From Phorcus lineatus (lineage: Eukaryota; Mollusca; Gastropoda; Trochida; Trochidae): a stretch of 64,000 nt of DNA. Each line of letters starts with the position of its first letter. Position 1 is the first letter of the stretch. The translations under genes and the position numbers were made by a program. Of this stretch, positions 1 to 61,200 are shown in pieces. Below the pieces are notes generated by a model. It saw only the letters and a program-made list of their open reading frames with translations, searched no databases and was not told where the DNA came from. The stretch covers positions 36,873,235 to 36,937,234 of the forward strand of contig OV121087.1 of assembly GCA_921293015.1 (NCBI GenBank), in the 5' to 3' direction.

Positions 1-344
1 TGCAAAGTGTAGAGTCCTTTAAGTTTAGTATTCAGCATAAGGACAGATGTTAGTATAGGAATTTGTGATTTGTGAGAGAATGGATACCCTTTTACTGAGA
101 TAAGATCTGTCTATCTGAATTTTTTTAAAGGTATGTAAAGGTGTCATACATAAGAAAGGCAAGTTTTCTGGATTACACAGCTTTTTTGCAATGATACAAT
201 GACTTCTTATTGGTACCACCAGTGATTCCAGTGATGGCGCTCATTACAAGAGGCTTAACTGAATTGCTCAGTCAAAATGGCACACATTTTCCGCTAAACA
301 TTCTTGAAGGAAGAGCACTATCATTATGACCTCTTCTCTTTTAG

Positions 345-3300
345 GAAAAGTCTATGATGTCATCACCCACGGCGCTTTCACTGCCTTCTGCCAGAAGTTT
401 AAAAGTGGAGGTTTGCGTCGTCTGCTGCAATACCAGAAAGATCTCTACAGTTCGCAAAGCACCCTGGGATTCCGGACCAAGATGCAACAGGCTTGCTCAC
501 TGCTAAATGATATCACAAAGCTGAAGACAGACATCACCCAGGGATGTGATAAGTTATGTCACGCCGCCCTACAGGGAACTGACACACTTCTTCAATCGGA
601 GATGCAGAGTCTTACTGAAACTGTAAGTGCTAAACTCCTAGATTAAATGTCTAAAAGACTATAATTGGGTGCTGCATCTGTCTGTTTATAGTTCATGTTC
701 AATGAGATGAAATGTTAAAGGGACACAGTGTATGTTGTTGGGGTCAAATATGTCAAACTTCATAATTGGTGTTATTTGATCGAGAAGTAGTTGTTGTTTC
801 TGAAAAATAACATCTTATTGCTTATCAGTATAGTATAGTAACAATGAACATGTTAATGTTGAAATTTGTGATCGAAAGCCGAATAATTGTGCAGGCCAAT
901 TAATGACTCTGACATAATTTAAACTTATTTACAGCAGACACAACTTAGAATAACGGTTGGTAGTGCTAAGTCGGTCATGTAACTCATATACATATAAATT
1001 GAACGTATAAGTTCAACATTTGTATGGCTGTTTTTCATTAACAAGTGGAAAAAATGAAATATAATTTTGGCATTAATAGATAAAGATGATACTTTAGAAA
1101 GGGGATTGAAACTTCACTTAGGTCATGAGATATTTTGGCTCTTATTTCAACCATATACAAAATTTATGAAACATGCTCTGTGTCACTTTAATGAATTTTT
1201 ATGGCGGTGACAGTTTCAATCAGAATGTTGATGAAGGTGTTGTTAAAATAGGGAACTCCAGCTAGGGGAGATTCATTGTTATGATCTCATTCCAAGACAC
1301 AATTCCCTTACAGGAGGAACCCTGGCATTTCTTGGTTAACTTTCTATAAGTTTAGATCCCACTTGTTATAGTGTTATTGACCTGTGGAGTAGAGCAAGCT
1401 TTATTTCCTTTTTTCTGTATATCTATAATTCTTTTCAATCGATGTTAGTTAATCACATATTAACTATACCTATAAATTCCTTAACATCTGTTCTCGTACA
1501 TGGCAAATTCCATCATATTCCCTGTATAAATGACCTCTAATTCCTGTAGAATGACCACACTGAATATTTTGGTATGTCTGTATTCTTCAGCTGAATTTAT
1601 GCAATAGCAGCTCATAGTTAGCTAGTGGGAAAATTGTGAGTTAGATTCACCCAATTATTGTTGTAATGATATTGTTTTATGATAAATACCATCATAAACT
1701 TCTTCACAATGTTTAAACTCATTTTATTTGAATTACCACAGGTACGAGAACTAGTACGTCTGTGTGAGGATCCCATACTTCAGCTGTCTGCAGAGAAATA
1801 TATGCAAGCCAAGTCTTCGTCAAACACAGCAGACGGCCTTGACCTTGCTGCCTCCCTGGGTCACATAACCAACAATAGCTGCCAGCAGACGGATAAATCT
1901 CCGGAGAAAAACTGGAGGTGGTCGGGAAGCAACTTTGTCAAGAGTCCTACTGTGGAACCCTGGGTAATATTTGGTACCTCAAAGGAGAACATAAAGAATA
2001 CTTTGTCTGGAGATATGAATGCACCATGATCCAGATAGGATTTTGAATGAGTTTGCATTTTTTGAAATGCATTTGAAATATTACAGAAATTAGATACACT
2101 GAAAAAGCAACTTACTGTGGTGATAATGAAACTTTTCTGTTCTTTTGATATCAAATTCTCACCAATTAATGACATGCAATTTAAAATAAATTCAAAATGC
2201 AAATTTTCAAAAAACTTTAAACTTTCTATGAGATGACTTGACTCAGTCTTCAAAACAAGGAATATCATCAAAGTTTTTTGTGCAAACTTTTCAGGAGGTG
2301 ACGAGGCTCAATCTGGAGGCTGCTATCGTGTGTTTGATATCAAAGGTTGACGACTTGGTTACTAAAGCGTCAGGGTCCAGTCAAGTGTCCGGCTGGTTGG
2401 GGGAGCTGAGCCCAGCGGTCATCAAGCTTCAGAGCTTTGTGGAGATTGTGTCCAGCCGTGCTACTCTTTTCCTTACTTTCCTCTCACTTATGGTAAGTTT
2501 TGGAATGTTTGGTGAAATCAGTTTGTATGGATGGGTTTCACTCCGTAATAATATGATACAGAAAAACGTATTGTAATTAGGAGATAAATCCATTCTGTTT
2601 TTTATTTTTGGGTTGTATGTCGTGCATTTTTCACTCCTAAATTTAATTTATATTTTTAATTTATTAAATGTTTATTTAGGGGTGAAAAATGCACAACATA
2701 CAACCCCAAAATAAAAAACAGAACGGATTTATCTCATTCTAACATGACTAATTAGAAAAATAATGAGGAACTTATTTGCCTTGCGCAACAACAATGTGAT
2801 GAGGTCGAACCAGTACAGACCAGTTCCACTTGCTTTCGAAACTACGGTACAGTTCCATTTTCAAAGAACACGCTTCAGTAAAAAAAAAGAAAAAACAAAA
2901 ATAAACCAACAGGTTTTTAAAATAGAACCCCTTAAGTATTTATTTCGTTGATGATAATATCAACAAAAGACAGATTTTTTATCCCGTCAGAGATATGTTT
3001 TTCAAGTAAATTATAAAAAGGTCACCTATCACCCCTACAATACCGACAAGGACTGACCCAATCAAGGGACGTCACTCTAAAAGTAGTTGTGTACTGCTAG
3101 CGTTAACTCCTCAAGCAAAAAGTGAACTGATTGAATGAACGATCAAGAAAGCTGTATAGTTTGTCATGGTTGAATACACTGTCTGGAAATTCACTTATGA
3201 ATGAGAGGGCGGAAAGGGAAGCAGTTTGTAAAGTTGAAGAATAACGTACGTCTCATCTGTTCACTTGAAGAATCGCTATTGCCGCGCGTTACGGTACGAA

Positions 3301-6300
3301 GCGAGCTCGGTTTGAAATTAAATTTAGTGATAAAAAAATAAACTACTTCGACAAATAATAACGAAAGAATGGATTTTTCGTATGAATTACTAAAGAAATA
3401 AGGTATTTTCAATGTCTTTATAGAATTGATTTAAAATTAATTTTTGAGTTGTCTGTAAGGCGATGAAAACAGTAAGTTCAGCGAATTGTTTGCGCGTATG
3501 AATGTGAATCGGTCGTAAATATTTAGAGGTGATTATCACTCCAAAAGTGATTGTGGTAACCAATCAGAAAGCAGTATTTTCATTCTAGTTTTCGTGTTAT
3601 GTTAGAATACGTATTGCATTACATTGGTACTTTTCATATTTTAGTTTTTCAATGCTCTCTTGACCAAATAACAGCAATTACAACAGGGATCAATCCTGAA
3701 TTGGCTGTCGTTTTTTAAAAAGAGATAATTGAGTGACTGGTTTCAGTGCTATTTCACTTTGCGAGTACGCACTTTGTTTACTTCAGTAAAATGGCATTTT
3801 TTTGGTTATGTTTTGACTGAAATTTTACGAAAATTGTTATTTTGAAAGCCTCCGATATATTGGATGTATTCGGAAGACTGTTTTGGTACACATCATATTG
3901 TTTCTGTATTGCATTATATTGATCTACCAATAACACCGTGCATCCTTATCAGATAATGGGACATTTAGACTTAACATGCTCCTTGGTGTTCAAAGATTGC
4001 ACAGAAAGAAAATGGAGAAAAATATGGATAGAATTTGATTACACTAAGATTGTTCCTAAGACACTAAGATATTCAATATATTTTCTAAAATCATCATGTT
4101 TTTCCCCTGACTGATGGTAATTTCAGTATTTCTTTACCCAAAAATATGTAATTAACAACAATGTGAAATAATCCACACACAAAAATTTATGTTTCACTTC
4201 TTTGCCTTGGATGTTGACCTGATGAGGATTGTAAACTAATCAGCACGAACAGTACCATTTTGTTTCAACTTCTTCTCTACAAAAATACCTTGGTTAAACT
4301 GGACCATTACTAATTTGGAATCCTCTCATGTGTTTTGATATTCTGCAGGAGAACAAAGACAACGTGAAGATGATGCACGGTGTGAAGACGAGGAGGGACG
4401 TGGTCACTGCACATGCAGTAAGTCTCACAAATGTAGTCACTGACGCTGATCGGAGTCGGTTTTTTTATCAAAACATGTTGAAGCACCAATCAGCAATTTT
4501 GAAAGTGTTTTTGGGACTCATCAGTCTCTCTGTTTTTGCAATGTTTAGGAAATTGTTTTTTGTTCTTATTTGATAAAAAATAAATCTTAATTTTAAGATT
4601 TTGATGAATTAAAAGGCACCCGATATCATCATCATCATCATCATCAGTGTGACACTTCCCGGTGACTTATCCAGGAATTTTGAGGGGGTCACCTATTGAA
4701 AATGAGGGGTGATGATGTAGATTTCTGATAAAAAAAATTCCATTTGGGGAGAGGTTGGGTTGAACTACCGAACCCCCTGTTTTTATCTGCCAAGGCTTCC
4801 TGTTATAAATATTTTAGGAAATCTGAAAGTGACTTTTTATAATTATAGGATCATTGTTACTCTTATATTTTCAGATAACGACTTTACTCAGTGGAATCGT
4901 AGTGAACATACAAACCAATATACATAAGCCCCATTACTTGGAACAGTTAGTTACGTGTGGCCTGCTGGCTGAGTTCGAATGCTTGTTGAGCTGTTATGGT
5001 GAGGAACAGGGAATGTTGGAAGATATGTCTGTCGCAGTCGATGATCTCGCTAGCGTGTCTTACTGCTTCACCGAGGCTGAGAATGATGTGTTCGAACCTG
5101 TTATTTCCCTTAAGAGGTATTTAGAAAAATTAATGATGTTTTGCAGAGGTTTTAAGCAGTCAAATATAAAAGTATAAAAGTTTTGGAATCTACCAAGATT
5201 CAAACCAATGACGACAAAATACGCTAACACACACTGAAACAATCATTGCTAGGCAACAGTGATATGTGCACATGTGCTCATACTGAAAATATGTCACCAC
5301 TTATGATAAACCATATGGGTAATAAAAATGATCAAAAGAACTTGCATGTATGGAAGCTCTTGTATCTAGCTGTGTTTTGATCTGAACTTTGATATTTCAT
5401 TTGATTTTTAAAGATATAAGATTTTTTTTTAAATAAATTCATTTTCATGCATGTTACCATTTTAGAATTTGTTTTCAGTGCAATAAAAGAAGGAATGTTT
5501 CCTGATATCAACAGGTAAGAAGGTTTTCGATACTTATGTTGTATACAAGTGTTTTACTTGTAAAATATGATTTTCATTTTCTAGTCCTATTGTTAAAAAA
5601 ATCAAAACATTTTTCCAATTTCCAACAACTCACAGAGTGGCTCTTTAAGTTGAGAATGGTGGGATGTTGGGGTATTAACTCTTGATGTTTGAAGTTGAAA
5701 TGAGAAGAAGCTTCTCATCAGGGAGGAGGCGTTTATTTAGTGAATTCTGTAACTGTTTGACATTAGGTTAAAGTAAAAAAATGTCAGTGTCTTTCAATGA
5801 AGGCCTACCTTAGTAATAAATCAAATGATTTATTATCCAGACACTGTCTCAAGGTAGAGATTCCTGTCTCTTCTTATGCGTACAATCTACTTCCTGCGGA
5901 GTTGCGTCAAGGTCACAGTATCAAGGTCACACCAGTTCTGTTCAACATTGGAATCAACGAGCAGGCAACACTTGCCGAAAAGTATGTTCCTGATAAGATT
6001 GCTAATTCATTTCTTGAAACATTAAAAAATTTCCTTAGTTAAGTTGAACTATTACTAGGACATAGAATTTGTGCTTACAAATCATTTAGTTTCTAATGTT
6101 CAACATTGTTATCCCTTCTTCATTTTATATAATTTATACATAATTTATGATGATAAGGTTTATTTCATCAATATCAGATTTGACTATAGGTGTGTCAATA
6201 TTTTGTTCTTTAAATGTTAGTTGTTGGTTGAAAATGTGTCAAATTTAAGACTTATATTGTAAAATTTATGATCAAAGTCTAAAAATGCAATTTGACTTTA

Positions 6301-14968: not shown

Positions 14969-17900
14969 ATGATAATTGGGCTCACCAACTGGGCAAGCGG
15001 ATTGTTACTTGTTATTGGTGGTTTTCTGGTCTGGTGGTTTTATCATGTGATGATCTACCATCTCTCTCCTCTCCGAAAGGTAAGTAAAACATACTATGGT
15101 GTTTGTGTAGAGCGGAATAGCTAAAAGTAATACTAACTGACACTATAAATCTATAGCTCATATACTTGGTAAACATTGTACTCTTATATTCGCAAAATAT
15201 AATTACTATTTTAAAGTTATATCGAGGTCCATAATTACACATACACATGTGTATTTACTATACCATTAAACGATTATATTTAATTTTTTGAAAAATAATA
15301 ACATTACAATTTTGAAATATATTTGGGGGACACTTTATTTGGTTCGCAGATTCCAAGTCCAACAACCTCCAATGTTCTCATTGGAAACGCCTTTGACATT
15401 TTCACGGATTTCCCGAGCTTCTTTGTCAGGTATGTAGATAGAAATATACGACATAACCAACATTCTTCCGGAAAAAAACCCATAAAGTGATGTAATGTGT
15501 CCTTCTATGATCGTTATTCTTGAAACGTTACATCAAAACTAACGACATTTTCAGTCGAAAAACTTAATGACCACACTTCTTAGACAATTATTAAATCTAG
15601 AAAATATTCGTTTAGTAATTTATCACATATGAAAGTGAATTTCTTCTGATATCATGAACAGTAGAGGGACACTAAATTGCCAACAAAGCTCCTATAATCT
15701 CTTGATAACTTTCACAGGATTTCCCAATATGAGCCATCTTATGAAATAATGACAAGGAATAAATGGATGACAACCCTTCTTTATTCATTGTATGCGACGT
15801 TTCGACACGGATTCTTGTGTCGTTATCAAGCGACATCTAATGAAATGACTTGAAATAAAACAATTTTGGAAGTACCAAATGACAGTACTGATACAGCTCT
15901 TTCAATACTATACAAGTATGAATAACCAGGCGGCTGCGATACGATGTGCGTGCTGTGAAAGGAATCAGGTGATTGCAAGAACCTCGCTTCAAGCGCTATA
16001 CTTAGTATTCTTAATCAGCATTTCCGTTAATACAAGATAGGTATTAGTACATGATAATGACATAAACTAGTTGAAATATGGTACTGAGGATAACATTTTG
16101 GTTGATTTATATTTTACAAGTAGATAAATGAGAGCGCACACTCGGTAAAATAAAACAAGAATGAGAAGTGAAGCATTCATAGGCGCTATGAGCGTTGTAA
16201 ACCTTGTTACTGCATTACATTGCATTGTTGGTCATTCTTTTCATAAATCATTAGTAAATGTGTGGATATTTTAGCGATGTGTGGTTTATTTCATAATGTA
16301 GAAAGTACAACGCCTTTTTTATGTCATTTTCCATCAAAACAACATGGCGGACCGTAGCCGAATGGACAGCCTCTTTAAAAGAAGTGTTACAATTTCACCG
16401 TGAGATCGTACAGACTGAGAAAGACATATCCAACAATTAACTTATAATGTTTATGAACAAATTAATTTTATTAATTGACTACTATTTCAGGTGGGCGCGG
16501 AGACTGAAGAGTTGTGTTATATGTATCAGACTATTTATGGGTTGGAGGTTTGTAGCGCTCTGTGACAAAGATTCCATCAGGCACGTGCTGGTTGACAACA
16601 TGGATAACTACAAGACACCTTCTAACTTTGTGTACGTTCATTTTTTCATAACTGATGTCAATTTGAGTTTGATTCTGTTTCAAATTCCTTTCTTATGATA
16701 TATATCAATCAAATAGTGAAAACATGGACAAATGCGATAGGAATGAATGTATACAGATTTCAGATTCTTAGTAATCTTGTATCGGTTCTTGATAATATTA
16801 ACTTTTGTTGGATACATGCGTGTGGTTAATCCATTAAATGAAATTCTCAAAATGTTTTCATCAAGAAAATATTAACATTTACATTAGAGTGTTATATTAG
16901 TTTGACTATGTTTTTTGAAAATTGAGTACGAAAAAAATTTACAAAGTGCTCGAAATTGAACTAAGAAAGATGAGTTATAAACGATTATAGAAATGTAAAA
17001 CCATCTGGTATACCAGTAGAGGTATTGGTCTTTTTGTGAAGTTTTGTTTTGAATAAGTCAAATGTTTACAAATGTATTGTGAAAAACATTGCATATTACA
17101 TTACATTTAACCGTTTTATCTATTGTTTTTCATGACGAACATGCACGTTATGATGCAATAACGATATCAATCTTGCTTTTTGATTAATTTACTTTGCGAG
17201 GATATGTTTAATTTGCGTACGATGTTTATAACTTACAGGTCGGCATTTTTCAAGATCAAAACTAGTGTTAAACTGGACAAGCAGAATCGTCAAATGTTCG
17301 AGAAAGCAATGGACAAGCTCAAAACTTCGTGTATGTATTTCTTTAAGTATTCTAAGAATTGAGAGTGATGTCCCACTTAATTACAGCGACAAGTATCCTT
17401 CAATCCTTTCGGAATTTCACAATTTGTCTCATTTTCTTAAAAGTTTACATTTTACATTGGGAGCAACACTTTTGTCACTAGTCCAGTGTTCAGCTTACGC
17501 GTGATGTAGGGAGGATGCTATAAGACGAACGTTGGAAATGTTTGACTTAAATGAAATTTGTGAAATTCCTGTGTAAACAATGAAATAATCTTGCAGATTA
17601 AAAGAAAAACCATTTGGATGATCACAACGCGAAAGAGGTGAATTTTATCTCTAGATATTGCCCGCAATACTTTCTGTGTATATTTGACAGCTGAAGCGTG
17701 TTTATAGAATTTGTTATGTTGTTTTTATTTGCAGATATACTAGTAACACAAAATAAAATCGAGTGTTTGATTGAGAGATGGCAGAAGGATGTATCCACTT
17801 CGAATGATCTTGTCGAGGTCGAGTCAGATATACGTAAAACTGTGAGTGATTTTACGACTGCTTCACGTGCTTTATTCGTAAACGTAACATCTTTTATATC

Positions 17901-20900
17901 ATAATTTCTCTTCTTCGCTATTAACATTCCTATGAAGTTAATAGTACTCAACAAAGAAACCATCTAGCTTTTCTCTCATATCAAGAAAGATTTTGATTGA
18001 TATTTAGATTTCTCTCCAAAACGTATTATGCTTTAATATGGCTCACCACATATGTATACACTTACGATAAATATTCAGGAAGAAAATATGATGATATTGA
18101 TTTTTTTTACAGATTTTGGACATAGATTTTAAAACAACTGTAGGAATAAAAATAAATTTCCAGTCTAATTCACAAAGCGACATTTCTTTCCTTGACGACT
18201 TCGATGAAAATGGAAATGGCCTGAGGTGAGTATCCACCTTGTCTTAACCCCTATAAAAACATAATTGATTAAGTTTGTTCATTATCAAATCAGTAAATAT
18301 ATAATAAATCAATGATACTGAATTCCGCGGTTTGACGATTTGCTTTGTATGTCTATTTCAGCTGGATGTCCCGTCTTCCAGGCAAATTTAAACAAATTTT
18401 TAACTCAACAAAATCTAAACATTGTCAGGAAACGTCTGTCAATTTCGATGACCTTGTGGAGAAAACCGTTCAAGACAGAATGTCCCAACATACCGATGAA
18501 GGTAAAGGTTTTATCTTTCTTATACTATTAGATTTTGTGTAGTAATATTCAACTAAGGTTTCGAATACGTGTTTCGGTGTAGAGCTAGATAAGATAGGAT
18601 ATAAAAACTTTGAATATGAATGCTTTGATTATTTCATTGTTTTGTAGCACAATTCAAACAATCAGTTCCTAAACTAACGGCTGTTAGTGATACTAGGATG
18701 ATTGGCAAACCTTAAGCTCAGTGCAGCACTACTTATCAATCACCCCTTTTATCATAAATTGGATAATTGGCACGCAAGCTTCATGACAAGTAAATCACCA
18801 TCAATGTCAAAATATTTCCCTACACATTAACTTGATGATTGTTTACATCAATATACTTGGGATATTCAATGTTTTCCTTCAGAAAATCTGATTGCTATAA
18901 TCTAAACATTTCCAGGTAAAATGCAAACCAATTTCTTATCACATCTGTTGATAATGAATAACAGAAACAGTGGATCAAAACTGTCCAAGGAACAAATCTG
19001 CCAGTATATGAATTCATTCCTTTCTACTTCAGTTGAGGTAAGTAGCATACTTCATAAACATGAATTATTATAGGTTTTTTATATGTACTTTTGAACGATG
19101 TATTATTCAAAAGACGTACTATTTTGTTATTTATTGAAGACCCAAAAATTAAAATTAAAACAACTGAAACAATACCATGGTCGAACGTTAAGTTCTATGA
19201 ATAGATTTCGATTATGAAATGATTATTTAGTATAGCCTTATTTGAATATTTAGACAACAAGTTCTACAATAACACGATGTCTGCAAATACTTGCACGGCA
19301 CCGTAGAATCCAGGAACGCGTTGCGAAGGAAGTGACGTCATACTTGCCGCCTCCAGGTCAGCCAATCACAGAACATTGCTTGGAGACTATGACCTATCTT
19401 GGATGTATCGTCAACGAAGTTCTTCGGTAAATCAAAAACAGAAACATGAAGTTTCTTTTTGCGTTAAAAGTGATTGAGACTTGAACTATTTGAGAAGCAT
19501 TCTGGTGGTTTTAAAGGGACTGTCAGAAGGTGTTTTGAAGGGACTGTCAGAAGGTGTTTTGGAAATAGAGTTATCGTCAGGAAACAAATAGAAAAACAAA
19601 TGTCACAAAACGCAAGAAAAACCTTTCAGTCAAAACAGTTCTTAAACGACCATACCACGTAGGATAAGGCTATTCAAATCCTAACCCGATTGATTAAAAT
19701 ATGTTCTAAAACGGCCACTTGAATCCTGACACCTTCTACTACGACTACCGCTTATTTGGTTGAGTCTTGATTTGAATTACTCTCTGAAGTTAACAGCTTT
19801 TGGTTGAGATGTGATTTGAATGTCCTCTGAAAGTTAACATGTTTGGGTTGAGTCTTGATTTGAATTACTCACTGAAGTTAACATATTTGGGTTGAGTCGT
19901 TATTTGAATGACCCTCTGAAGTTAACATATTTGGGTTGAGTCTCGATTTGAATTACTCTCTGAAGTAAACATATTTTGGTTGAATCTTGATTTGAATTAC
20001 TCTCTGAAGTTAACATGTTTGGGTTGAGTCGTGATTTGAATTACTTTCTGGGTTGAGTCTTGATTTGAATTACTCTCTGAAGTTAACATATTTGGGTTGA
20101 GTCTTGATTTGAATTACTCTCTGAAGTTAACATATTTGGGTTAAGTCGTGATTTGAATTACTCTCTGAAGTTAACATATTTAGGTTGAGTCTTGATTTGA
20201 ATGACCCTCTGAAGTTAACATGTTTGGGTTGAGTCGTGATTTGAATGACCCTCTGAAGTTAACATATTTGGGTTAAGTCGTGATTTGAATTACTCTCTGA
20301 AGTTAACATATTTGGGTTGAGTCTTGATTTGAATTACTCTCTGAAGTTAACATATTTTGGTTGAGTCGTGATTTGAATGACCGTCTGAAGTTAACATATT
20401 TTGGTTGAGTCTTGATTTGAATTACTCTCTGAAGTTAACATATTTGGGTTGAGTCGTGATTTGAATTACTCTCTGACGTTAACATATTTAGGTTGAGTCT
20501 TGATTTGAATTACTCTCTGAAGTTAACATATTTGGGTTGAGTCGTGATTTGAATTACTCTCTGAAGTTAACATATTTGGTTTGAGTAGTGATGTGAATGA
20601 CCTTCTGAAGTTAACATATTTTGGGAAAACTAGTATTTAATGGGGGAAAATTAAACAGAGAACAGTCCTTTTCATAATGATATAAATAACTAGAAGATAA
20701 TGAATGATGATCCTGTTTTATCCACACATTACGTGTAGTGATGAATAGGTTTTGAATCCTTATACCGTTTTCCATCATAAGAGATGGTGGACTTACATTT
20801 ATGTATTAGATTTTTAAGAGTACATCTAGTTTAGCCCGGAACTATTATAACGTCAAACAATTCGGCCCTCCGGCCTCTTGTTTTTACTTTAATACTTAAG

Positions 20901-21796
20901 GACAAGATTATACTTTATTAAAAAAACACAATGATTGAGGCCATCCTATTTCTCAAGTATTGTAATTTCAGTCAGATGAGGAACTGATTCATCATTTTTG
21001 GATTTTTTTGCAGTTTGTACTCACCTATACCTATTTTGATAAAAGAAGCAATCAAAGATGACGTCATCAATGGATACCAAATACCACGTGGAACTGTAAT
21101 AGCGTGTACTTTATCTGCTCTTCATCGGTGAGTTGTGCTTATATTAAAAATTCATATTAAAATCTCATATATATATAGTTAATAAACTGAACAACGTCAA
21201 ACTTTGAAATTTTGAAATTGATTTCATTACGCGTAAGGGGAGTGGGTTTTTTAAAAATACTTTCTAGGCCTAATTGGGTGATTAATGATACCACCAAATA
21301 CTCATAAAAGTGGTTATCAGGTCTTTCTAAACCGTTGGTTCCCATTATAAACGGGATAGGTATTTCTTAACGTAATTGTGTCTTTCCATGCTTATCATAT
21401 TTTTGTGAAAGTTATTGCTTATTGGCATGATAATATTTTTTATTTTGGAAATTCAACGGCATGAAATAGATATATATTGTAATTTGATTTCATTCATTTT
21501 CCTTTATTCATTTCAGAAATTCTATATACTGGGAGAATCCGGATCAATTCAATCCTGATCGTTTTCTAAATGGAAATATCAACGAACACATATTCCTTCC
21601 GTTTGGTGCTGGCGATAGTATGTCGTTTGGAGTTAAGATGGCTGTTGTTAAGATGAAACTGACACTAGCCTTGATATTACGTCACTTCCGGGTCAGACCA
21701 CATGAAGGTCAAGTTTACGAGACAGTCTATAACGGAAGCTTAAAACAAAGCCCGTCTGTTAAGTGTCGACTTTTACCAATGGATGATTATTACTGA
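14969..21796 (+). CDS. Cytochrome P450-like protein lacking the heme-ligand cysteine
   Basis: Eleven exons join in frame to 490 residues: 14969-15079, 15350-15429, 16491-16631, 17239-17330, 17735-17841, 18113-18225, 18362-18501, 18916-19037, 19254-19426, 21014-21127 and 21517-21796 (TGA). The start is the first ATG before a hydrophobic N-terminal anchor (residues about 6-25), followed by SPLRK, as in microsomal P450s. Visible motifs are an I-helix E-T-T (302-304), K-helix E357-V-L-R360 and a PERF-like FNPDRF (409-414). The heme loop reads PFGAGDSMSFG, with Ser434 (TCG, 21623-21625) where FxxGxxxCxG needs Cys. Ser432 replaces the usual Arg/His, and C-helix WxxxR is D124-K-Q-N-R128. The gene has no stop, frameshift or bad splice site, so it seems maintained. 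The sequence resembles clan 3/4 or CYP46-like P450s, but I cannot name the family. AATAAA at 21825-21830 lies just after the stop. Confidence 0.92.
15769..15850 (-). repeat. Dispersed element end with hammerhead-like core
   Basis: On the minus strand, 15794-15830 has a 6-bp stem (CGACAC/GTGTCG, loop AAGAATCC) preceded by TTGATAA and followed by AAACGTCGC. This resembles the CUGAUGA-stem II-GAAAC-GUC layout of hammerhead ribozymes found in Penelope-like retroelements, with two substitutions in the first core strand. The phrase GAAACGTCGCA recurs in the hairpin element at 38034-38180. It lies in P450 intron 2. Function is inferred only. Confidence 0.4.
19513..19562. repeat. Short tandem duplication (two ~24-bp units)
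   Basis: GGGACTGTCAGAAGGTGTTTT occurs twice in a row in P450 intron 9, just upstream of the large minisatellite. No function is apparent. Confidence 0.7.
19753..20625. repeat. Minisatellite of ~20 copies of a 44-bp unit in P450 intron 9
   Basis: The unit contains GGTTGAGTCTTGATTTGAAT and then TACTCTCTGAAGTTAACATA. I count 20 copies, one of them shortened by about 15 bp near 20041-20052. Two variants are interleaved: CTTGATTTGAATTACTCTC and CGTGATTTGAATGACCCTC. Nearly every unit has GTTAAC. The array lies between exons 9 and 10, that is, between the two halves of the K-helix arginine codon. Confidence 0.93.
21602..21631 (+). other. Altered heme-binding loop of the P450
   Basis: The codons read Phe-Gly-Ala-Gly-Asp-Ser-Met-Ser-Phe-Gly. 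The four framework residues of FxxGxxxCxG (Phe, Gly and the final Gly) are kept but the cysteine is TCG serine. A Cys codon (TGC/TGT) would need a change at the second base and, from TCG, also the third, so a single sequencing error does not simply explain it. Downstream residues continue as a normal L-helix. Confidence 0.9.
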
Positions 21797-22079
21797 TGGT
21801 GTGAAAACCGTAATCAAAGATGTTAATAAAATGTTATTCTGAATGGCTAGACACAATCTAATGGCGGACACAGAAGGATGGAGGCTTATAGAACCATCTA
21901 ACTCTTTTACCTATGTGAATTCAATTCTTCCCATTTGGTAAATTCCTTGAACCGTCATTAGACGTTCGGATTTCTTGAAATTGAATTCGAACCAGGAATT
22001 ACACAAGAATCTCCACGGAATTCATGTCAAACTGTTTTCATAATATCAATTAACAGCTGTATTGATAACAAGACACGAC

Positions 22080-22745
22080 ATTTCCCATACAAAAATCTGC
22101 ATCTCATTCTAACAACACAAACATTTCTACACAAGATAGGGATATCTGAAAGAAGCAAATGCTTCTTTTGTACATAGGAACCTGAAACACTTGAGCATCT
22201 CTTTTATGATTGTAGGAAAACTCAGAAATTGATAACAAAGTTTCAGAAATGGTTTGAAGAAAAAACAAAAATGAAATTTACGATATCAAAATCTGTTATT
22301 TTACTCGGAGACCTTGATCAAAGCATTCTGTTAAATCATTTATATTTCATTATTGAAATGTATATTTACAAGTGCAAAAACAACAAAGAAATCATTTATA
22401 TTTCCCAGTTTTGATAAAAGATATGAAACACATTTACGAAATCGAAACATTTATTCACGACCGTCCTCATATAGCTTTTATCAACAAATGGTCGATTTTG
22501 AAGCAACATTTATAATATCATACACATCGAGTCACGGACAATCCCCTCCCCATCCTGCCCCCATTCATCATCCCTACCTCATAACACCCTCTCTCTTTTC
22601 CTAACACATATTCTTGTTTTTCTCTGTAAATATTGTACCTTTGAAATGTATTTAGTTAAATGAAAGCAATTTCCGGTATTTGAAAATGTAGGGGCTTTAT
22701 GTATGAAATCGTGCTGGAAATGCTTTCTGTAATAAAAAAAAAAAA
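22080..22745 (+). mobile_element. 5'-truncated, dead LINE 3' end
   Basis: A conceptual C-terminus shows CFFC...EPETLEHLFYDC, the zinc-binding motif typical of the end of non-LTR retrotransposon ORF2 proteins, but a TAG stop interrupts it. It is followed by KFQKWFEE and ILLGDL, which also fit LINE C-termini. The sequence ends in TAATAAAAAAAAAAAAA (about 22729-22746), like a retroposition tail. It inserted just downstream of the P450 gene. Confidence 0.75.
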
Positions 22746-29123: not shown

Positions 29124-32100
29124 GCATCATCATCGTTAACATTAATATTTTTAAAATTATTATTATCATTGTTGTTGTTGTTTGTTTTGTTTTTTACAAA
29201 CATTCCCTGCTAATGGTTAATTATAATCTCTTATCCTTTGAAACTTTGTCTAGGACGTTGAGACCACGTTAAAGAGCCACTCCGTGGGTTGTTGGAGTCA
29301 TAAATGCCAAACTTAATCAATGGTGTCATTTGATCGCGAAGTATCGACTGTTACCAAAAAGACACATTTTAAAGCTTATTGGATTTTTATAGTTACAATA
29401 TGAAGGAAGAACGTACCAATAATGATCGAAAACCGGACAGTGGCGCGCGTCAAATTGTCAAACGTAATTTTGGAGACTTATCTAAAGCAGCCAGGAGGGC
29501 AGTTGGGAATTGATAGTGTTTTTTAGGTTACATAACTAGTATCCATATATATTGGACGTGATATCTACACCTCTGTGCATTTATAAGGCTGTTTTAAGAT
29601 TTTCATGGAAATCGAGTATGTGTCATATATATGTCTTTTGGGCATAAAAAGTTAAGATGTTTTGATTTTATATCGCCACATATGACATTTGGGTTCGTAT
29701 CAAGGGTAAATAATATGTTTTGAAAATCACGGAGTGGCTCTTTAAGCTAAGTCTCATTTTTGTGGAATATTTAACATTCATGTAAATATAACAAAAGATG
29801 TATGTGACGAGTTTTACTATTTTAAAAACGAATCTTCTATGCTAGTTATTTATATATTTTTTTAAATCATTTCCACTGTTATCTAATGCGTTGTTGAAGA
29901 TTCAAGTAAACTTGATGTATACATAATGGATATATGTACTTCTTTCAAGATTTCCTTGACTGTGTTGCACATTTCCGCTCGAATATTATTTCTTTACTGT
30001 TTCAATATTGTATCTACAATATTAGCGCATTCTTCAGAAGTCAATTAAATTTTATTTTGATAATATATTTGTTCATTTTAGACATCATCACAAGATGATG
30101 TCCACGGTTTCCTAAAAAATGGACAGGTTTTATGCAAGTGAGTATTTCAATATATTTACCCCCTTAAGCCACAACATATAATTGACGGGGGGTTCGGCAA
30201 GGAGGTGGCAATGAAGTATATGACGAGTAGTAGTTTTCAATGAACAACCAAACAACACCCTTTTATATTTGCCTCGACAAAAAACACTGGTAAAACCTAT
30301 AAGAAAGATAATGATAATAACAATCTACTTACATAGCAACTATTTTCTAAACGATGTAACATCGCTGGAGCTTCCAGAATCGCGACTTTATAGTTTATAT
30401 TGTCACTTTACTGAACCGACTGGCGTAAAAATTATACTATTCAGCACCAGTGGGTCTCAAATATGGTATAATCTTTTAAGTTCATATGTGACTACTTAAA
30501 TCCTCGAAGGCACATTTTCGGAGTGTATACATGTCTAAATAATGTCGTTCCCAAGATAAGCACTATTCCATCATGTCGTAATCGTGTTGCCTTTGTTTGA
30601 TCATCGGTACCATCGGAGAGTTTTTCACGATATACATTTAAAGATGGGATTTTTGGAACCGATGTGCAAACGAAAGCCATTCGCCGATTTTACATCACAT
30701 ATGACCTCCTGATAGTTCCTTGAAGATGGAGCCAAAAATTCCAAACGAATTGGCATGACAACTAATTTGCTCGGCCTCCAGGTGTTGCTGTTCATGCTTG
30801 AAAACATTTTGCGGAGGCCAAACGATGTCTTGAAATATCTAAACGAACAGCCTAGTTGCTGATAAATTGGAACACATGAACACACTTTCAGCAGGATATA
30901 AACGATAGTTGTAAAATGTTTCGTCAAATTATCAACAGAAAAAGAAACTATTTCTCATTGTCATGCTTTTCAATTTCGATTTCAGGTTGATGAACGCCCT
31001 GCACCCAGGATCAATCAAGACTATTAACACGAGTTCAATGGCTTTCAAAATGATGGAGAATATCAGTCATTTCCTAACGGCTGCCGAAGCTTATGGGGTT
31101 TACAAGTCCGACTTGTTTCAGACGGTCGATCTTTACGAGAAGCAGAACATGTCTCAAGTAATCAACGGAATTCATGCCTTGGGCAGACGTGTAAGTGAAG
31201 ATTAATACGATTTTGCTTTAATAGATGTCTAATATTCTCCGCCGCTTCTATTCTTCATCAAATAAGAATTTTTGACTAGCCTTCATAAGAGTTTCTGTTT
31301 CTATTGAGTCACCATCTTCTACTGGAGACACATACTTGAAACTGAGATCCTTCTGGGGATTCGAGTTTTTGAGACTCACATTCTACATGGGTGCGACAGG
31401 CGAGTTCTTGAGACTCGGATTCTAAATGGGAAAAGCGAGTTTTTGAGACTCAGATTCTACACGGGTGGGACAGTCGGGTTCTTGAGATTCAGATACTAAT
31501 AGGGAAAGGCGAGTTCTTGACATTCAGATTCAACATGGGTGGGACAGGCGAGTTCTTGAGAAACGGATTCCAGTTTGAACTCGCGAGTTCTTGAGACTCA
31601 GATTCTACTTGGGACTGGCGTGTTCTTGAAACTCGGATTCTTCTAGGGACGCGAGTTATTGAGACTCAGATTTTACTTGGGACTGGCGCCTTAAAGCTTC
31701 TTGAAACTTAGCTCCCATGTATATCTAGCTCATTCTGACACTAGCTCCTATTTAGATAGGAGTTAATTGAGGAGACTGATCTTCCTTTGCAAACCAAGCC
31801 TCTTTACGAAACCATGCTACTTCTTGAAATCAAGCTTCTATTGCATACTGGCTTCTACAGGATACCTTTTTTCTACTGGAGTTATCGTTTCTACTTAAGA
31901 TCAAGTCGCTGACTGAGAGCCAGCTTCTACGGAAATTCAAGATTTTCAAGAGACCATGCTTCTCCTTGAAATCGGTTCTATGGAGACTTTTAGTCAGTTT
32001 CTATCATACACCAAGTGTTTTTGAACTGTCGAAGATTTGCAACGTCTAAAGGAGATTGCTGTTTTTAATTTCTTAGTCTAGTAGCTGGCGGAGACAGGGA

Positions 32101-44092: not shown

Positions 44093-47000
44093 ATGGCAAA
44101 CAGACCAAAGGGATACGGAATGACCGCCGAGCTGGCACAAAAGGTAATTGACGAAACTATATAACGATGTAGATAACGTGTCATTCTAATGAAAACTATG
44201 TACAATGTTAAATGTCACACTACTACGTAGAACGTTATTTTTATGTTTTATTTGATCAGTAATAGTTGAAGCAAAATGTATTTATTTATTTTAGGGTAAA
44301 ATATTTCAGTCCCCATCCCGATCATTTGTTGGTGCAGAAAACGACGTCACGTATTAAGCGCAAACATCGTGCCATTAATTCAGTGTGAACGCCTTAAGAT
44401 ACTACGTGATAATGAAATGGATTGAGAATCATAAACGGCGTTTGTGCGTTCGTTTTATTCTCTTTTATGATTAAAAACGATTGTTTGGCAATTGATAACA
44501 TTTGTTGTCCCTTTCGTTAGATCCTATATTTACATTTCATTACGTGCTACAGAACCTTAAAATGGGTTAAACGCCTCATTTGAATGTATGTCATCAATGA
44601 AAATCTCCTCTTTGTTTGATATAGAAAGATGCCAAATATGACGAAAATCTCGCGGCTGAAGCAATGCAGTGGATATCCGCCATAACAGGCGAGGATTTAC
44701 CCGGGGTATGTATTATTGTTGTTATCATCATCATCATCATCATCATCATTATTATTATTATCATTATTAATCAACTTCATTTTTTTGAAGTCCTGAAAAT
44801 ATTGGATGTCATTATTTTGCACTTTTTACATTATGATGGAAATTCGCCTATGAAACTTTGGTCGCACGTTTTTTTCCGTCGAGGCGACGTTCAGTTTAAC
44901 ATCTAATTTTCTACTGAATATGGTTGTAACGAAAATTGTATGTGGCTAGATTAACATCTCATTTATTACTAAATACGATTGTAACAAAAAATGTACGTGG
45001 CTAGACTTTACTGTAAAATTATGCATTAGCGTCATTTTGTTTTTTAATTGTCATCATTCTCACATTTTGTCTAATGCATTGTTAAAGATCCTTTGTTTAT
45101 CTTGGATATATGAACTATTGTTATGCCTACTGATCCAGTATAAAATATTTAACGTAAGTTTAACGTAAATGTTAAACATTTCCTTCGTTTGTGATATTGT
45201 GTGTTCATATAGAGCTGTGATAGTATAAGCGTATTCTTAAGACTTTAACAAATTTGATATATCTTTTTATGTTTCTAGACATCGCAAGATGCTGTCCATG
45301 ACCACCTAAAAAACGGACAGGTTTTATGCAAGTGAGTATTCATCAATGTTCGCTGCCACCGACCTTCGGTCCGTCGTCAATTATCTTTTTCCATTTTCGA
45401 CTTCTTGAGAAATGCTGCCCTTTCAAAGCTTTATTTCCTGGGGACGTACCGTGTACCCAGGGGGTCAAAGATTTTACTTCTGTTCTCCCCTCACTCAAAT
45501 ACAGACCCTTGCAGAATTAGTTACCTGAAAACCGCTATATATCTGAATGCATTCTGAGTGCAATCTGAATGCATTCGACCGCAATGAGACAGGTAAAGAT
45601 ATATCCACTGTATAGGCCTTGCAGGCATTCTCCCTGAAAAATATAGTCGATTTCGTCTCCAAACCATCTAAAAATGCTAAAATGTTCATAATACCATCTT
45701 GTTAGACGGAGACACCTTTTTATAAATTCATTTTCCTAGTTCTAAAATAAAGGCTTGGCAGGGGTGTAATTTAACTCGAGATCAGCACGTTGTTGTGTAT
45801 TGGTGTAAGCATTTTCGCAAATATTTTAGATTAGAGGGTTAATGGATGATAGAGAGCAGCCTCGAATCATCCGTGTGACTCGTATATATCTAAAAGATAT
45901 TTATTACATGTTGTAAACCTATAATTTTATTTGTAAATCTTTAAACGCACTAGTGCACACCAATATTTCGTAAACACAACGAATGCACAGATACTGCATA
46001 TCTCTCGATATTATTAAAGATCCTCACTCAAGTAATCTACCTCGTAAGTTATTTAACAATATTTACGTTTTAAGGTAGTAAAGTTGATTTTTAAAGACCG
46101 GAAGTATTTAATGCAATGTAACTTTAAATCCGCATGAACTACGATATCGGAAATATTAAGATTTTGCTTAAAGCTTTGCGAAAACGGCAATAGCAATGCT
46201 AATGCTGTGTTATTAAATCGGTTTATTGACAACATTGCTTTCATAAAACATAATTCATTCTTTGTTCTCAGTTCAGAGTTTAGGTAAATTCAACAGCTGC
46301 ACATAATGCTAGTTCAGCCGCGTTCAACTGTCTATAATTTATCCGTTTTGAGCACAGCTAACCATAGATTTTTTATATGTCCAAGCCGACAGCGGCTGTC
46401 TAAATCTTTTCATTGTTGATTGCAGGTCAAATGTAAAGAATTTTAAGTATTTCATTGTTTCGATAGAAAGCTTAAGTGAATGCATAAGTCCTCTTAACCC
46501 TTAAAATAGCCAATTTAAATAGTAAAATCGTGCACTAGTGCCTTTAAACTCAGGTAGTAAATGGAATTCACAGCACAAGAGGACATAAATGATCACAGTA
46601 TAAGGCATGTACTCCAAAACGTCGGAAAAAATAAAGAAATTCTCCATTAAATCTTGTACTTCTCAGTGACATTTTACTCTTAACTACCCTTTTCTTTGTC
46701 TGCACTTTTGTATATATGTATCTCATCTCTATATGTTTCCGTGTATTTTTATATGTATATTTATATATATTGTGTCCATATTATATATGTAAGCAATGTA
46801 CATAGGAGAGGGTTTCACTTAGTTGGATTACTTGTACCCAATCCTTTCTCTTGAATAAATATGTTTAAATCAAATCATAAAATCTTGCTATCTTGAGGAT
46901 ATAAACTGTTGTAAAAAAAATTCATCTTCTTCTTTTGTCATGATTTGAAATTTAAAATTTCAGGTTGATGAACGGATTGAAACCAGGCTCAATCAAGAAA

Positions 47001-48163
47001 GTTAACACGAGCACAATGGCCTTCAAGATGATGGAGAATATCAACCAATTCCTAACGGCTGCCGAAGGTTACGGGGCTCACACGGCTGACATGTTTCAGA
47101 CAGTCGACCTCTACGAGAAACAGAACATGCCTCAAGTAATCAACGGAATCCACGCCCTGGGCAGAGCTGTAAGTAAAGTTAAATTTTATTTTTTCTCTTT
47201 AAGTGGCATTTTAGAAGTTGGTTTGATGAGGAAAAGCTTAACAGCAAAAAGAAATTTAAGAAATAGGAAATTTATTGATTTACAACTTCTTTATTGCAAA
47301 GAGATGACGATGTTAACATGTTCATGAATTTCTCATCTCTTTGCAATAAAGAAGTTGTAAATTCATTTGTTTCATATTTCTACAAGTTTTCATTTTGTCG
47401 CAATGTAAGATTAATATTTGTTGTAAAGACCAAGGTTCTGCTTGAGATTGCCCTTGATAATCTTCTTATTAAATTTAATGTTTTTGAAACTGTGCTTCTC
47501 AGACCTGATCTTTCGTCTGTTTGACAAAATTTGAATCTCGTTTTGTTTTGGACTGTAGGAATATCTAGGACCAGGTCTCTTTTTAATACCGTTCTCCGTT
47601 CGACGCTAGAATTATTTGAGACCCGGTCTTTTTGGACTGTTTGAGACCCACCTTCTTTTTTACACTAGGGCTATTTTAGTCTAGTCATCTTTTTGAAGAC
47701 AAGGACTTTTTTAGAGTAGGCATGTTTAGGACACTAGGACTATTTGAGACCTATGGAAGCAGCATCGGGGACAAGGTCAGTGGAGACGCACGAATAGGTC
47801 AATGTCCAATGAAGTCTAGATCTGCGACACAGATTTGGGCACTGACGTCTTTCGACACTGGACGTTTTTATATCTATGTTAGCTTTATCTGTGATAAATA
47901 TTTTCGTGTTATGGAAACGTCGTCATCTGATACTTTAAGAATGTAGGGCCATCGCATCTAATGATACCCTTTGTTTACAGGCACAAAAGAATGGTTTCAG
48001 TGGTCCCACGCTTGGCGTAAAGGAAGCCCAGGCCAATAAAAGGGAGTTCACAGAAGAACAAAGGAGGGCCGGCGATGGCATTATTGGCCTGCAAGCTGGT
48101 AGCAATAAGGGAGCCTCGCAGGCTGGTCTCAACATGGGCAAGACCCGGATGATCTTGGACTAA
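44093..48163 (+). CDS. Calponin/transgelin-family protein, paralogue B (full length)
   Basis: This is a myophilin/Mp20/transgelin-type actin-associated protein. Coding exons are 44093-44143, 44625-44705, 45279-45331, 46964-47168 and 47981-48163 (TAA), totalling 190 residues, the usual family size. It starts MANRPKGYGMTAELAQK. The CH domain follows (YDENLAAEAMQWI, NGQVLCKLMNGLKPGSI, FKMMENINQFL, MFQTVDLYEKQNM, VINGIHALGRA). The last exon holds a single calponin-like repeat, GIIGLQAGSNKGASQAGLN, near the C-terminus ILD. Exon 1 begins at an acceptor 13 nt before the ATG, so the 5' UTR is split. Intron 3 holds a TTAA MITE and intron 4 a hairpin and a degenerate repeat. AATAAA at 48743-48748 is a plausible polyadenylation signal. 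Confidence 0.96.
44718..44772. repeat. (ATC/ATT)n microsatellite after exon 2 of paralogue B
   Basis: It begins about 15-20 bp after the donor and occupies the same intron position as the (ATC)n run in paralogue A, which suggests it predates their duplication. Confidence 0.8.
45941..46547. mobile_element. TTAA-flanked MITE, GCACTAGTGCAC family, copy 1
   Basis: TTAA lies at 45941-45944 and 46544-46547. The terminal inverted repeats read ACGCACTAGTGCAC and GTGCACTAGTGCCT. A copy in the opposite orientation is at 60972-61605, and an old decayed copy lies at about 52770-53345. The internal text shared with the second copy includes AACGAATGCACAGATACTGC and CTCACTCAAGTAATCTACCT. It lies in intron 3 of paralogue B and has no transposase. 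Confidence 0.85.
46670..46880 (+). repeat. Probable LINE 3'-UTR fragment
   Basis: A T-rich stretch with repeated TATATAT/TATGTAT ends in TTTCTCTTGAATAAATATGTTTAAATC, resembling the polyadenylation end of a LINE. No coding part remains. It directly precedes exon 4 of paralogue B. Confidence 0.3.
47279..47361. repeat. Perfect 29-bp-arm hairpin in intron 4 of paralogue B
   Basis: The left arm 47279-47307 (TTTACAACTTCTTTATTGCA, then AAGAGATGA) is the exact reverse complement of 47333-47361, with a 25-nt loop. Perfect pairing suggests recent origin or gene conversion. The phrase TTTATTGATTTACAACT recurs at about 49165, so the sequence is part of a dispersed family. Confidence 0.85.
47560..47765. 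repeat. Degenerate repeat in intron 4 of paralogue B
   Basis: Loose repeats contain TTGAGACC, TCTTTTT and GACACTAGGACTATTT. It sits in the same intron as the GAGACTC repeat of paralogue A, and may be its diverged counterpart. Confidence 0.4.
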
Positions 48164-58260: not shown

Positions 58261-61200
58261 TTAGTCTAAAATGGCCCGTGTTTTGCCGAGATTCATGCCA
58301 GCCTGGGAAGCACCTTTGTTGGAACCAGCCTGTAAACCTATCACTGTGTTGCCCGCCTTGAGCTGTTCTTCTGTAAATTCGCGTTTATTGGCCTTCGACT
58401 CTTTAGGACCACAGGTTGGACCATCGAAACCGTTTTTCTGGGCCTGAAAGATAAAATAGGTATAAGTTGACCTGAAGATGTATTTACAACTTTCCCTGTA
58501 AGGCACATCTCGCACCATCCTCCCTCACTACCTATTTCGAGCCTTTCTGCATTTCAAATTCGTGGTTTGAGTGCCCACACCTGCAATAGCGACAACTCTC
58601 AAGAAATTCTGATTCGACTGTCAACATCTGCCGGAGTTGACGACAGCGATAGAACAGAACAGGCTTAAAAGGCTTAAATTTGCCATTGATAGAGCTTGAC
58701 ACCGATTGTTCCTTGGAGGGGGTAATTGCGAGGCGCATTGCTTTTAGATGACTTCAAATGAGTGGAATAAAAGTGTAACTTAGAGTCCATTTAAAGTCAT
58801 CTTACGAAATGGAAAACTAGGATTAAAGTACACTTTTGAATCATATGATGGTTAACAGACGGATCGTATAGCATTCTCAAACAATAGAAGAATTGGAATA
58901 TGTTTAACTCGAGTGACAATTTTAATTTAGGCTGGGATGATATGGATTATCAATTTTCGCACAAAACGTCATCATAATTTAATGGAAGCATGTGAAAGCA
59001 AAGACTGAAACTGGAAAGGAGTCAAAACCACCATGTGTACCGGAGATGAGAGCCGAAGATTTGCAAGGTCCTGTCGGTGTCACTAACATTTATAAAAAGT
59101 TAAATTTAACTTACCATTCTTCCTAAGGCCATTATTCCATTGATAACTTGCACCATATTCTGTTTCTCATAAAGGTCAACTGTTTGGAACAAGTCCACTT
59201 TGTTACACCCATAGTTCTCAGCGGCTTGTAGGAAATTAGAAATGTTCTCCATTTTCTTAAATGGTAACTTGCTATCATTAATCTTTTTCACACTGCCGGG
59301 TCGAAGAACATTGATTGCCCTGAAACGAAAACAATTATTGTTAAGAATATTATTATTATTATCATCATTATAATTATTGAATATATTATTATTGATTATC
59401 CTAATAGGATATACAAAGTTATTCAGTTATTAAGAGTGATATGTAGAAAGAAATTGTTTTTGGTTTTTTTCGTGCATTCTACTGGAAAAAAACTGTTATT
59501 TTCCTTAGATATCTGAAGATATGACAACTGAGGAGATAATGACATTTTTTACTTTGAGTTGTTTATTTTTTACAAGATGACTTACTTGTGACAAGAACGT
59601 GTGGGATTGTGTTGATATGACAATTATATACTTATCTTAGAATAAGATAAGGAAAAACGGCCTTGAGTAATATGAATGGTTGAAATAGGAATCATTGTTT
59701 TGTGATGTTATCAAAATGGATATATGATATTATATATTTTCCTTACTGACAAAGATAAATCCCATCTTTAAGTATTTCGTGCATCTTGTCAGGTCCGATA
59801 GCACCGGATGACTAGAACATAATACAAAATGAAATAACAACAGTATTTAGATTCAACATTCAGCTCTGCATAAATGCGTATCAAGGACCATAATATGAAA
59901 GCATTGTTAGGCACTCGTAAATAAATAGATAAATATCAAAAGTTTCAAAACGCATCAGGAGCGAGAACAAGAAATTTTCCACTTGTGCCATAGGAGCACA
60001 ACAACTACTGCAGTTGGCATTTAAATCCCATTCAATCATTTAAGCTTAATCAATTTTACTTAGAATTAAATAATTAAATAAGGGTTTGAATTTAAAATTT
60101 AAAGCTTGATCACGTGACATCTGATGCACATGTTACAAATAAGAGGGTAACAACTGAAAAAAATAAAAAGTAAGATCACGGTCATTCACTTAAATAAAAC
60201 GTATCCACTACCAAGTTAAAGGATAATGGGTAAAACATTACGGTTTAGTAATAACAGTCATGAAGAGATGACAATTAAGGTAAAAAATTGACTCTCACAC
60301 CATGGTCAAGGTCAGAAGGTCAAAATCAATCAATAGGTCTTTTGATAAGGGATAAACATAGAAGCAGCAATATATTTTGGATAAGAACTTTTTTATTACG
60401 TATTACGAAAGAGAAAGCATAACATTTTGAAACGTTAACAATCAAAAAAGTTGTTATCTACAAAATGTGTATGTCACTTCTAAATGCCCTTCAATGGAAT
60501 ACAGTGATAAGCACCATTTTTTAAATGTGTAATGAAACTTTAAAGCCAAGAAAAAAGTTGCGCTCATTTTGAAGATAGAAAAGGAAGTGGCTGGGGAGGG
60601 GAATATCAGAAGAAAGAAAGAAAATGATTCACTCACCTCTGACAATCGTATTCCCAATAATTCGTCTAACCATTGCCTCGCCTCTAATTCAACAGATTCA
60701 TCATATTTACTGCTGATCTGAAACAAACAGTCTTGGTTACAACATGTGCAGTACCCTATCTTAAAGAGCCACTCCGTGATTTTCATAACATATTATTTAC
60801 CTTTGATACGAACATAAATGTCATATATGGTGATATAAAATCAAAACATCTTATCTCTTCTATCCAAAAGACATGTATATAACATAAACTGGTTTTCCAT
60901 GAAAATCTAAAAGCTTTAAAATGTGTCTTTTTGGTAACAGTCGATACTTCGCGATCAAATGACACCACTGATTAAAGGCACTAGTGCACGCTTTTACGGT
61001 TTAAATTGGCTATTCTAAGGTTTACAAGGACTTATGCATTCACTTAACCTTTCTATAGATGCAATGAAATACTTCAAATTATTTACAATTGACCTGTAAT
61101 CAACAATGAAAAAATTTTGACAGCCGCTGTCGGCTTGGACATATATAAAATCTAAGGTTAGCTGTGCACAAAACGGATATCTTATAGACAGTTGAACGCG

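Follow-up and report, generated by a model that had tools for sequence, protein, structure and literature searches.

A serine at the heme-ligand position of an intact P450 gene in the gastropod Phorcus lineatus: a candidate retained pseudoenzyme

The 64,000-nucleotide stretch of Phorcus lineatus DNA analysed here (contig OV121087.1 of assembly GCA_921293015.1, positions 36,873,235 to 36,937,234; called the window below, and numbered from its first letter) carries a cytochrome P450 gene whose protein has a serine, Ser434, at the position of the heme-ligand cysteine, the residue that defines P450 chemistry. The gene is real as well as unusual, and the best single reading of it is that a non-catalytic function has been kept, the Ser434 protein being probably a retained, heme-free P450 pseudoenzyme anchored in the membrane of the endoplasmic reticulum (ER). 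This reading, to which we give a probability of roughly 0.5, draws on comparative sequence evidence from a single genome.

Results

The gene and its product

The coding sequence extends over positions 14969-21796 of the forward strand and consists of 11 exons totalling 1473 nt, which encode 490 amino acids from ATG to TGA. All ten introns are of the GT-AG type, there are no internal stops, and no frameshift or splice defect is seen in any of the 11 exons; a spliced-alignment script written for the purpose, with the Ser434 protein itself as query, returned the identical exon set. Eleven intact exons with sound splice sites had been proposed in the preliminary description of this DNA, together with a serine at the cysteine position within the loop FGAGDSMSFG, and both are borne out by the spliced coding sequence, the features of which are as follows (all on the forward strand).

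14969..15079, + strand: exon 1, with the start codon, encodes the N-terminal hydrophobic anchor
15350..15429, + strand: exon 2, 80 nt long, where paralogues L029 and L031 have 83
16491..16631, + strand: exon 3, 141 nt long, where L029 and L031 have 144
17239..17330, + strand: exon 4, coding for the B-C loop and the C helix; 92 nt long, where L029 and L031 have 107
17735..17841, + strand: exon 5
18113..18225, + strand: exon 6
18362..18501, + strand: exon 7
18916..19037, + strand: exon 8, beginning of the I helix, with Thr299-Ser300 replacing Ala-Gly
19254..19426, + strand: exon 9, remaining I helix, J helix and ExxR (E357, R360), 173 nt as in all three paralogue models
21014..21127, + strand: exon 10, 114 nt as in all three paralogue models
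21517..21796, + strand: exon 11, FNPDRF, heme-loop region, L helix and stop codon TGA
21623..21625, + strand: codon TCG, Ser434 at the heme-ligand cysteine position, within FGAGDSMSFG
21825..21830, + strand: AATAAA polyadenylation-like hexamer shortly 3′ of the stop codon

The protein scores 235.6 bits against the Pfam p450 model PF00067 (curated cut-off 22.8) over residues 39-471, and a scan of NCBIfam gave eight weak matches, all to bacterial or archaeal P450 models and far under their cut-offs. Judged by its similarity to the Pfam model, the protein is a P450 homologue along nearly its full length. Its most hydrophobic span of 19 residues starts at residue 11, with a Kyte-Doolittle mean of 1.94, and the strongly hydrophobic segment encoded by exon 1 resembles the signal anchor of microsomal P450s. 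Much of intron 9 is occupied by a tandem array with a 44-bp unit (19753-20621), recorded in rows of 6.8 and 13.0 copies; units of 73 and 117 bp overlap with it.

Could the serine be an artefact, that is, the result of an assembly error, of a faulty gene model, or of an unseen alternative last exon that bears the cysteine? The gene models were built from splice-site reasoning and homology only, which leaves some room for this. However, TCG differs by two bases from both cysteine codons, which rules out a one-base sequencing error as the cause; two bases would need to be wrong, and the remainder of the heme-loop motif is degenerate too. Moreover, a tblastn search of the 64-kb window with the Ser434 protein found no second C-terminal exon, so that the normal cysteine loop which the preliminary description had named as a possible refutation does not appear there, and exons 9 and 10 match the lengths of those of the paralogues. 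We consider an artefact very improbable.

The cysteine position was also surveyed in a sample of the P450s of this genome, a 958-Mb assembly in 74 contigs, in which 92 out of 515 candidates were scored. The sample had 83 loci, of which matches to the profile hidden Markov model with a residue in the cysteine column made up 71 rows, and counting identical DNA around the codon once reduced these to 50 distinct heme-loop contexts. The codon is TGT in 36 of them, TGC in 13, and TCG in one, that of the Ser434 gene only. With cysteine in 49 of the 50 sampled contexts, a serine at this position exceeds chance.

Paralogues in the same genome

The nearest genes lie at C16:23.256-23.261 Mb, C12:2.124-2.130 Mb and C37:35.787-35.795 Mb (loci L029, L031 and L032; proteins p29, p31 and p32) and have 28-31% overall identity to the Ser434 protein. 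The cysteine, the Ala-Gly pair of the I helix and the C-helix Gly..His segment are present in all three. Their exons 9 and 10 equal those of the Ser434 gene in length, and the other exons compared are similar. The models of L029 and L032 lack the first exon, and that of L031 starts without its Met. In a tree of 46 rows the Ser434 protein groups with the three paralogues, which are also its nearest rows by path, at modest support (81/79), its exact placement being unsure because of its long end branch, and the genome search found no close duplicate of its gene.

The paralogues have deviations of their own. In L029 (C16:23252300-23262000), the nearest of the cysteine-bearing paralogues, the I helix, encoded in exons 8-9, reads AGIQNT instead of AGxETT, so that its acid-alcohol pair is altered too, and in L032 (C37:35786500-35796200) the heme loop is FGSGPFMCIG, with the cysteine present and the arginine changed to phenylalanine. 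A placement near CYP46, to which the appearance of the C-terminal exon pointed, was abandoned. The solved chains of CYP3A5, CYP4B1 and CYP46A1 score similarly against L031 (191, 182 and 177 bits), and no CYP family is claimed for this reason.

Extent of the heme-pocket loss

The Ser434 protein was aligned with the three paralogues and 173 other P450s, 151 of them from protein searches and 22 of them single-exon proteins of the same genome; the latter were chosen by a pattern that already contained the cysteine and the arginine, which biases the alignment towards those two columns. With the threshold for conservation at 70%, 56 columns reach or exceed it; the Ser434 protein retains 30 of them and the three paralogues 44, 48 and 41. 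Retained are the I-helix ETT, ExxR, FNPDRF, PFGxG, Gly436 and the C-helix Arg128, and the ERR triad formed by ExxR and the PERF-type arginine is present (E357, R360, R413).

What is lost, on the other hand, goes well beyond the cysteine (weighted frequency 1.00 in the alignment). The glycine of the I helix (0.99) is replaced by Ser300 and its alanine (0.91) by Thr299, the heme-loop arginine (0.93) by Ser432, and the isoleucine directly after the cysteine is replaced as well. The Gly..Trp/His segment that opens the C helix has been removed by a 15-nt (five-codon) in-frame deletion in exon 4, relative to L029 and L031, so that of the propionate motif of this helix (WxxxR; HxxxR in the paralogues) R128 is present, and the Trp/His and the preceding Gly segment are gone. 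With serine in place of the cysteine of FxxGxRxCxG, the protein is a P450 homologue and not a heme-thiolate enzyme. The claim of the preliminary description that the structural motifs are kept therefore holds for ETT, ExxR, FNPDRF and PFGxG, and fails for the heme-loop arginine, the I-helix Ala-Gly and the C-helix Gly..His segment. That the loss might be restricted to the heme pocket was considered and rejected, since conserved positions outside the pocket have changed too.

The replacement residue being exactly serine, one may ask whether this is a natural P411, i.e., a hemoprotein in which Ser434 binds the heme iron and which has altered redox or non-oxygenase chemistry. Retention of R128, ETT, PFGxG and Gly436 would agree with this. 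However, the propionate-binding and heme-packing parts that engineered P411s retain are gone here (C-helix Gly..His, heme-loop arginine, I-helix Ala-Gly and the isoleucine after the cysteine), and these additional losses make serine ligation less likely. The accessible part of one report does describe the C400S variant of P450-BM3 as losing monooxygenation, yet as more efficient in iron reduction and capable of other catalysis (PMC5379065). On balance we think a natural P411 unlikely.

Where constraint remains

Retention was counted over residues common to p29 and p31, and the cysteine-bearing p32 was taken alongside the Ser434 protein. In residues 281-476, from the I to the L helix, the Ser434 protein keeps 57 of 105 and p32 55 of 105, whereas in residues 37-280 the counts are 32/95 and 46/95 (Fisher p=0.055). 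Comparisons with the Ser434 protein have 25-34 gapped positions before residue 281, as against 3-14 among the paralogues, and no single sub-region differs significantly in retention between the Ser434 protein and p32. In exons 9-11, at sites where p29 and p31 agree, change at codon positions 1/2/3 amounts to 0.42/0.22/0.58 in the Ser434 gene and 0.40/0.25/0.55 in p32. By these figures the C-terminal half has evolved like that of a cysteine-bearing paralogue, with a tendency to erosion in the C-helix region and from D to H, on a measure which spans the whole branch since duplication and would thus include any long enzymatic phase.

No orthologue of the Ser434 protein was found by protein searches with the single protein, with a four-row alignment and with the dense C-terminal region; the search is seeded from a restricted set of short words, which makes this absence weak evidence. 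The best match to the single protein is 24% identical and covers 92% of the query, with E 2.8e-38, and the C-terminal region has two matches, P0153 (43%) and P0154 (39%), both with the cysteine. For the single protein and the four-row alignment the best 120 of 438 and the best 120 of 465 proteins were considered, and no mollusc protein is among those listed matches that have an organism name, which most do not.

Retention or decay

The main rival to a retained pseudoenzyme is a recent loss, in which a divergent and fast-evolving active P450 lost its cysteine lately and is now a young pseudogene or null allele with its frame still unbroken. We think this possible, if rather improbable. None of the usual marks of a pseudogene (stops, frameshifts, broken splice sites) is present in the 11 exons, which speaks against it, and we compared the observed losses with neutral simulations, which were started from the present coding sequence of the Ser434 gene rather than from an ancestor, under uniform mutation and with 20,000 runs per setting. 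Of the 48 sites that are held both by two of the three paralogues and by 70% or more of the reference set, the Ser434 protein has lost 20 while its frame is still open. In neither setting (without indels, or with indels at 10% of the substitution rate) did any of the 20,000 runs accumulate changes in 20 of 48 randomly chosen codons ahead of its first disabling event; the maximum was 18 without and 8 with indels, and at least 12 were reached in 0.22% and 0% of runs, respectively. A fully neutral phase extends, at the 95th percentile, to about 76 substitutions (5% of sites), or to 27 with indels.

The heme pocket gives a similar picture. Of 17 columns that we take, from known structures, to form it, at least five were replaced before a disabling change in 0.5% of neutral runs without indels and 0.005% with 10% indels, and at least six in 0.16% and 0.0025% (40,000 runs); the strict observed count is six, one of them by deletion. 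A neutral phase this short is too brief for most of the losses, though an enzyme that was still active could have acquired them beforehand.

The codon itself bears on the same question. The path between TCG and TGT or TGC takes two changes, and its intermediates encode serine or tryptophan, never cysteine, so that a second change in the codon must have followed the loss of cysteine unless both were simultaneous. The probability of a G at the third base is 0.5-1.3% at a neutral divergence of 0.018-0.052, versus 16% at a divergence of 1, and adding an assumed 1% for a tandem double change brings it to 1.5-2.3%. Taken together, the codon and the simulations count against a very recent loss of the cysteine, which may have come before or after the other changes. 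Long neutral decay is likewise argued against, by indirect evidence from a single genome that does not thereby prove a present function.

A number of observations weigh the other way. The end branch of the Ser434 protein (1.71, compared to 0.56, 0.73 and 0.95 for the paralogues) is what relaxation would give likewise, and among sites held by the other paralogues it has lost 13/32, against 9/41 for p32, 5/37 for p29 and 2/34 for p31, which makes it the fastest of the four, as under relaxation. Substitutions are found outside the heme pocket too, at Arg310 (Trp elsewhere), Arg319 (Pro), Ser363 (Pro), Lys443 (Glu) and Gln475 (Pro), and some of the changes may predate the loss of the cysteine, in a still active enzyme. 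The difference from p32 in the N-terminal half reaches p=0.055 only, some joints of the paralogue models in exons 5-7 were placed by eye, and a gene may pass through up to the 76 (or 27) neutral substitutions given above before its first stop. Nor are the changes in the I helix and at the heme-loop arginine decisive features alone: the arginine is phenylalanine in L032 and lysine in L029, both with the cysteine, and the Capitella proteins CYP10B1 (GAVETT) and CYP39B1 (ASLANA/FGGGRFQCPG), as given in the accessible part of PMC4229089, keep the cysteine despite an altered I helix or heme-loop arginine.

Neighbouring and other genomic features

Just downstream of the P450 gene, window positions 22040-22410 resemble, by eye, the end of a reverse transcriptase frame of LINE type (long interspersed nuclear element); the open frame at 22335-22601 has no Pfam match. 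Three separate exons with calponin-homology (CH) domains, at 30915-31202 (+), 46956-47324 (+) and 59106-59426 (-), perhaps belong to a small group of clustered genes of the transgelin/calponin kind, located on both strands. At 308-6042 (+) a run of open frames resembles exons of a gene for type II inositol-polyphosphate 4-phosphatase; three of these frames have no Pfam match singly. Outside the window, contig C12, to which the window belongs, has 16 haemocyanin beta-sandwich domains (PF14830, a molluscan family) in two groups of eight with opposite orientation, C12:7646582-7661095 (-) and C12:16557773-16572398 (+), and these are probably two haemocyanin genes of eight units each. Such domains indicate a mollusc, without singling out the gastropods, which are nevertheless plausible.

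Discussion

A retained pseudoenzyme would have come about by an old duplication within a small family of P450s in this mollusc, after which the cysteine ligand, the opening of the C helix and the small residues with which the I helix faces the heme disappeared from one copy. The frame, the splice sites, the N-terminal hydrophobic anchor and, in the C-terminal half, the core of ERR triad and meander would have been maintained in the meantime. The product, presumably anchored in the ER membrane, would bind heme poorly or not at all and be unable to activate oxygen, and it might act by binding, either to a partner protein or to a small hydrophobic ligand, in the way that the bacterial protein EryCII stabilises and activates a glycosyltransferase. 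The three options of the preliminary description (a non-catalytic P450 fold, a protein with a different axial ligand, or a binding or regulatory pseudoenzyme) were apt, and the non-catalytic fold is favoured among them; the loss was understated there, several heme-pocket features besides the cysteine being gone.

How exceptional such a protein would be can be gauged from surveys of which the accessible parts are cited here. The cysteine is the sole invariant residue of its motif in 4304 fungal P450s (PMC3990721), it is kept in all annotated P450 sequences of Capitella (PMC4229089), and three cnidarian CYPomes depart from the heme-loop motif in no more than one Gly-to-Ala change and a deletion in CYP20 (PMC8110760). 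The Capitella paper notes that exceptions at the cysteine are documented and cites Sezutsu et al. 2013 for them (PMC4229089), a work that may contain an animal precedent. Among the titles and abstract openings listed in a literature search there was no report of a maintained cysteine-less animal P450; in bacteria (PMC3391682) and oomycetes (PMC5919972), cysteine-less P450 homologues are already described. If our interpretation is correct, a maintained cysteine-less animal P450 shows that the fold can persist for binding or regulation alone, in a gene that domain-based annotation would label a monooxygenase.

Of the known systems with which the Ser434 protein can be compared, engineered P411s have their substitution placed in an otherwise intact heme pocket, whereas several heme-contact features are changed in the Ser434 protein. 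The likeness lies in the serine at the axial position (P450-BM3 C400S; PMC5379065, accessible part). The CYP5619D proteins of oomycetes are closer in being eukaryotic P450 homologues, six members of which lack the cysteine of the CXG motif; they are, however, fused to a peroxidase/dioxygenase domain, according to the accessible part of PMC5919972, unlike the single-domain P450 encoded by the Ser434 gene.

The closest likeness of all seems to be that to the EryCII/DesVIII family of bacterial macrolide glycosyltransferase activators, which have a P450 fold without the cysteine, a lost or eroded C-helix region and a conserved I, J, K, K′ and L part. EryCII itself, as described in the accessible part of PMC3391682, lacks the cysteine, the C and C′ helices and parts of G and H, keeps I-J-K-K′-L well conserved, and is both a stabiliser and an allosteric activator of its glycosyltransferase. 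By sequence, the Ser434 protein shares with this family the P450 fold without the cysteine, the loss in the C-helix region and the conserved I-to-L core, its C helix being shortened and not wholly absent. Ten of the 59 open frames of the window, taken as single frames, were compared with Pfam, with three CH domains, seven frames without a match and no glycosyltransferase among them. It is tempting to speculate, more tentatively than for retention as such, that an animal lineage has repeated the EryCII route, losing the cysteine and the C-helix region while the I-to-L core stayed under selection, and that it arrived independently at a eukaryotic regulatory pseudoenzyme common to related molluscs. 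The differences are as plain as the likeness: EryCII is bacterial, paired with a glycosyltransferase and provided with an extra N-terminal helix, whereas the Ser434 protein has an N-terminal hydrophobic anchor and belongs to an animal P450 family.

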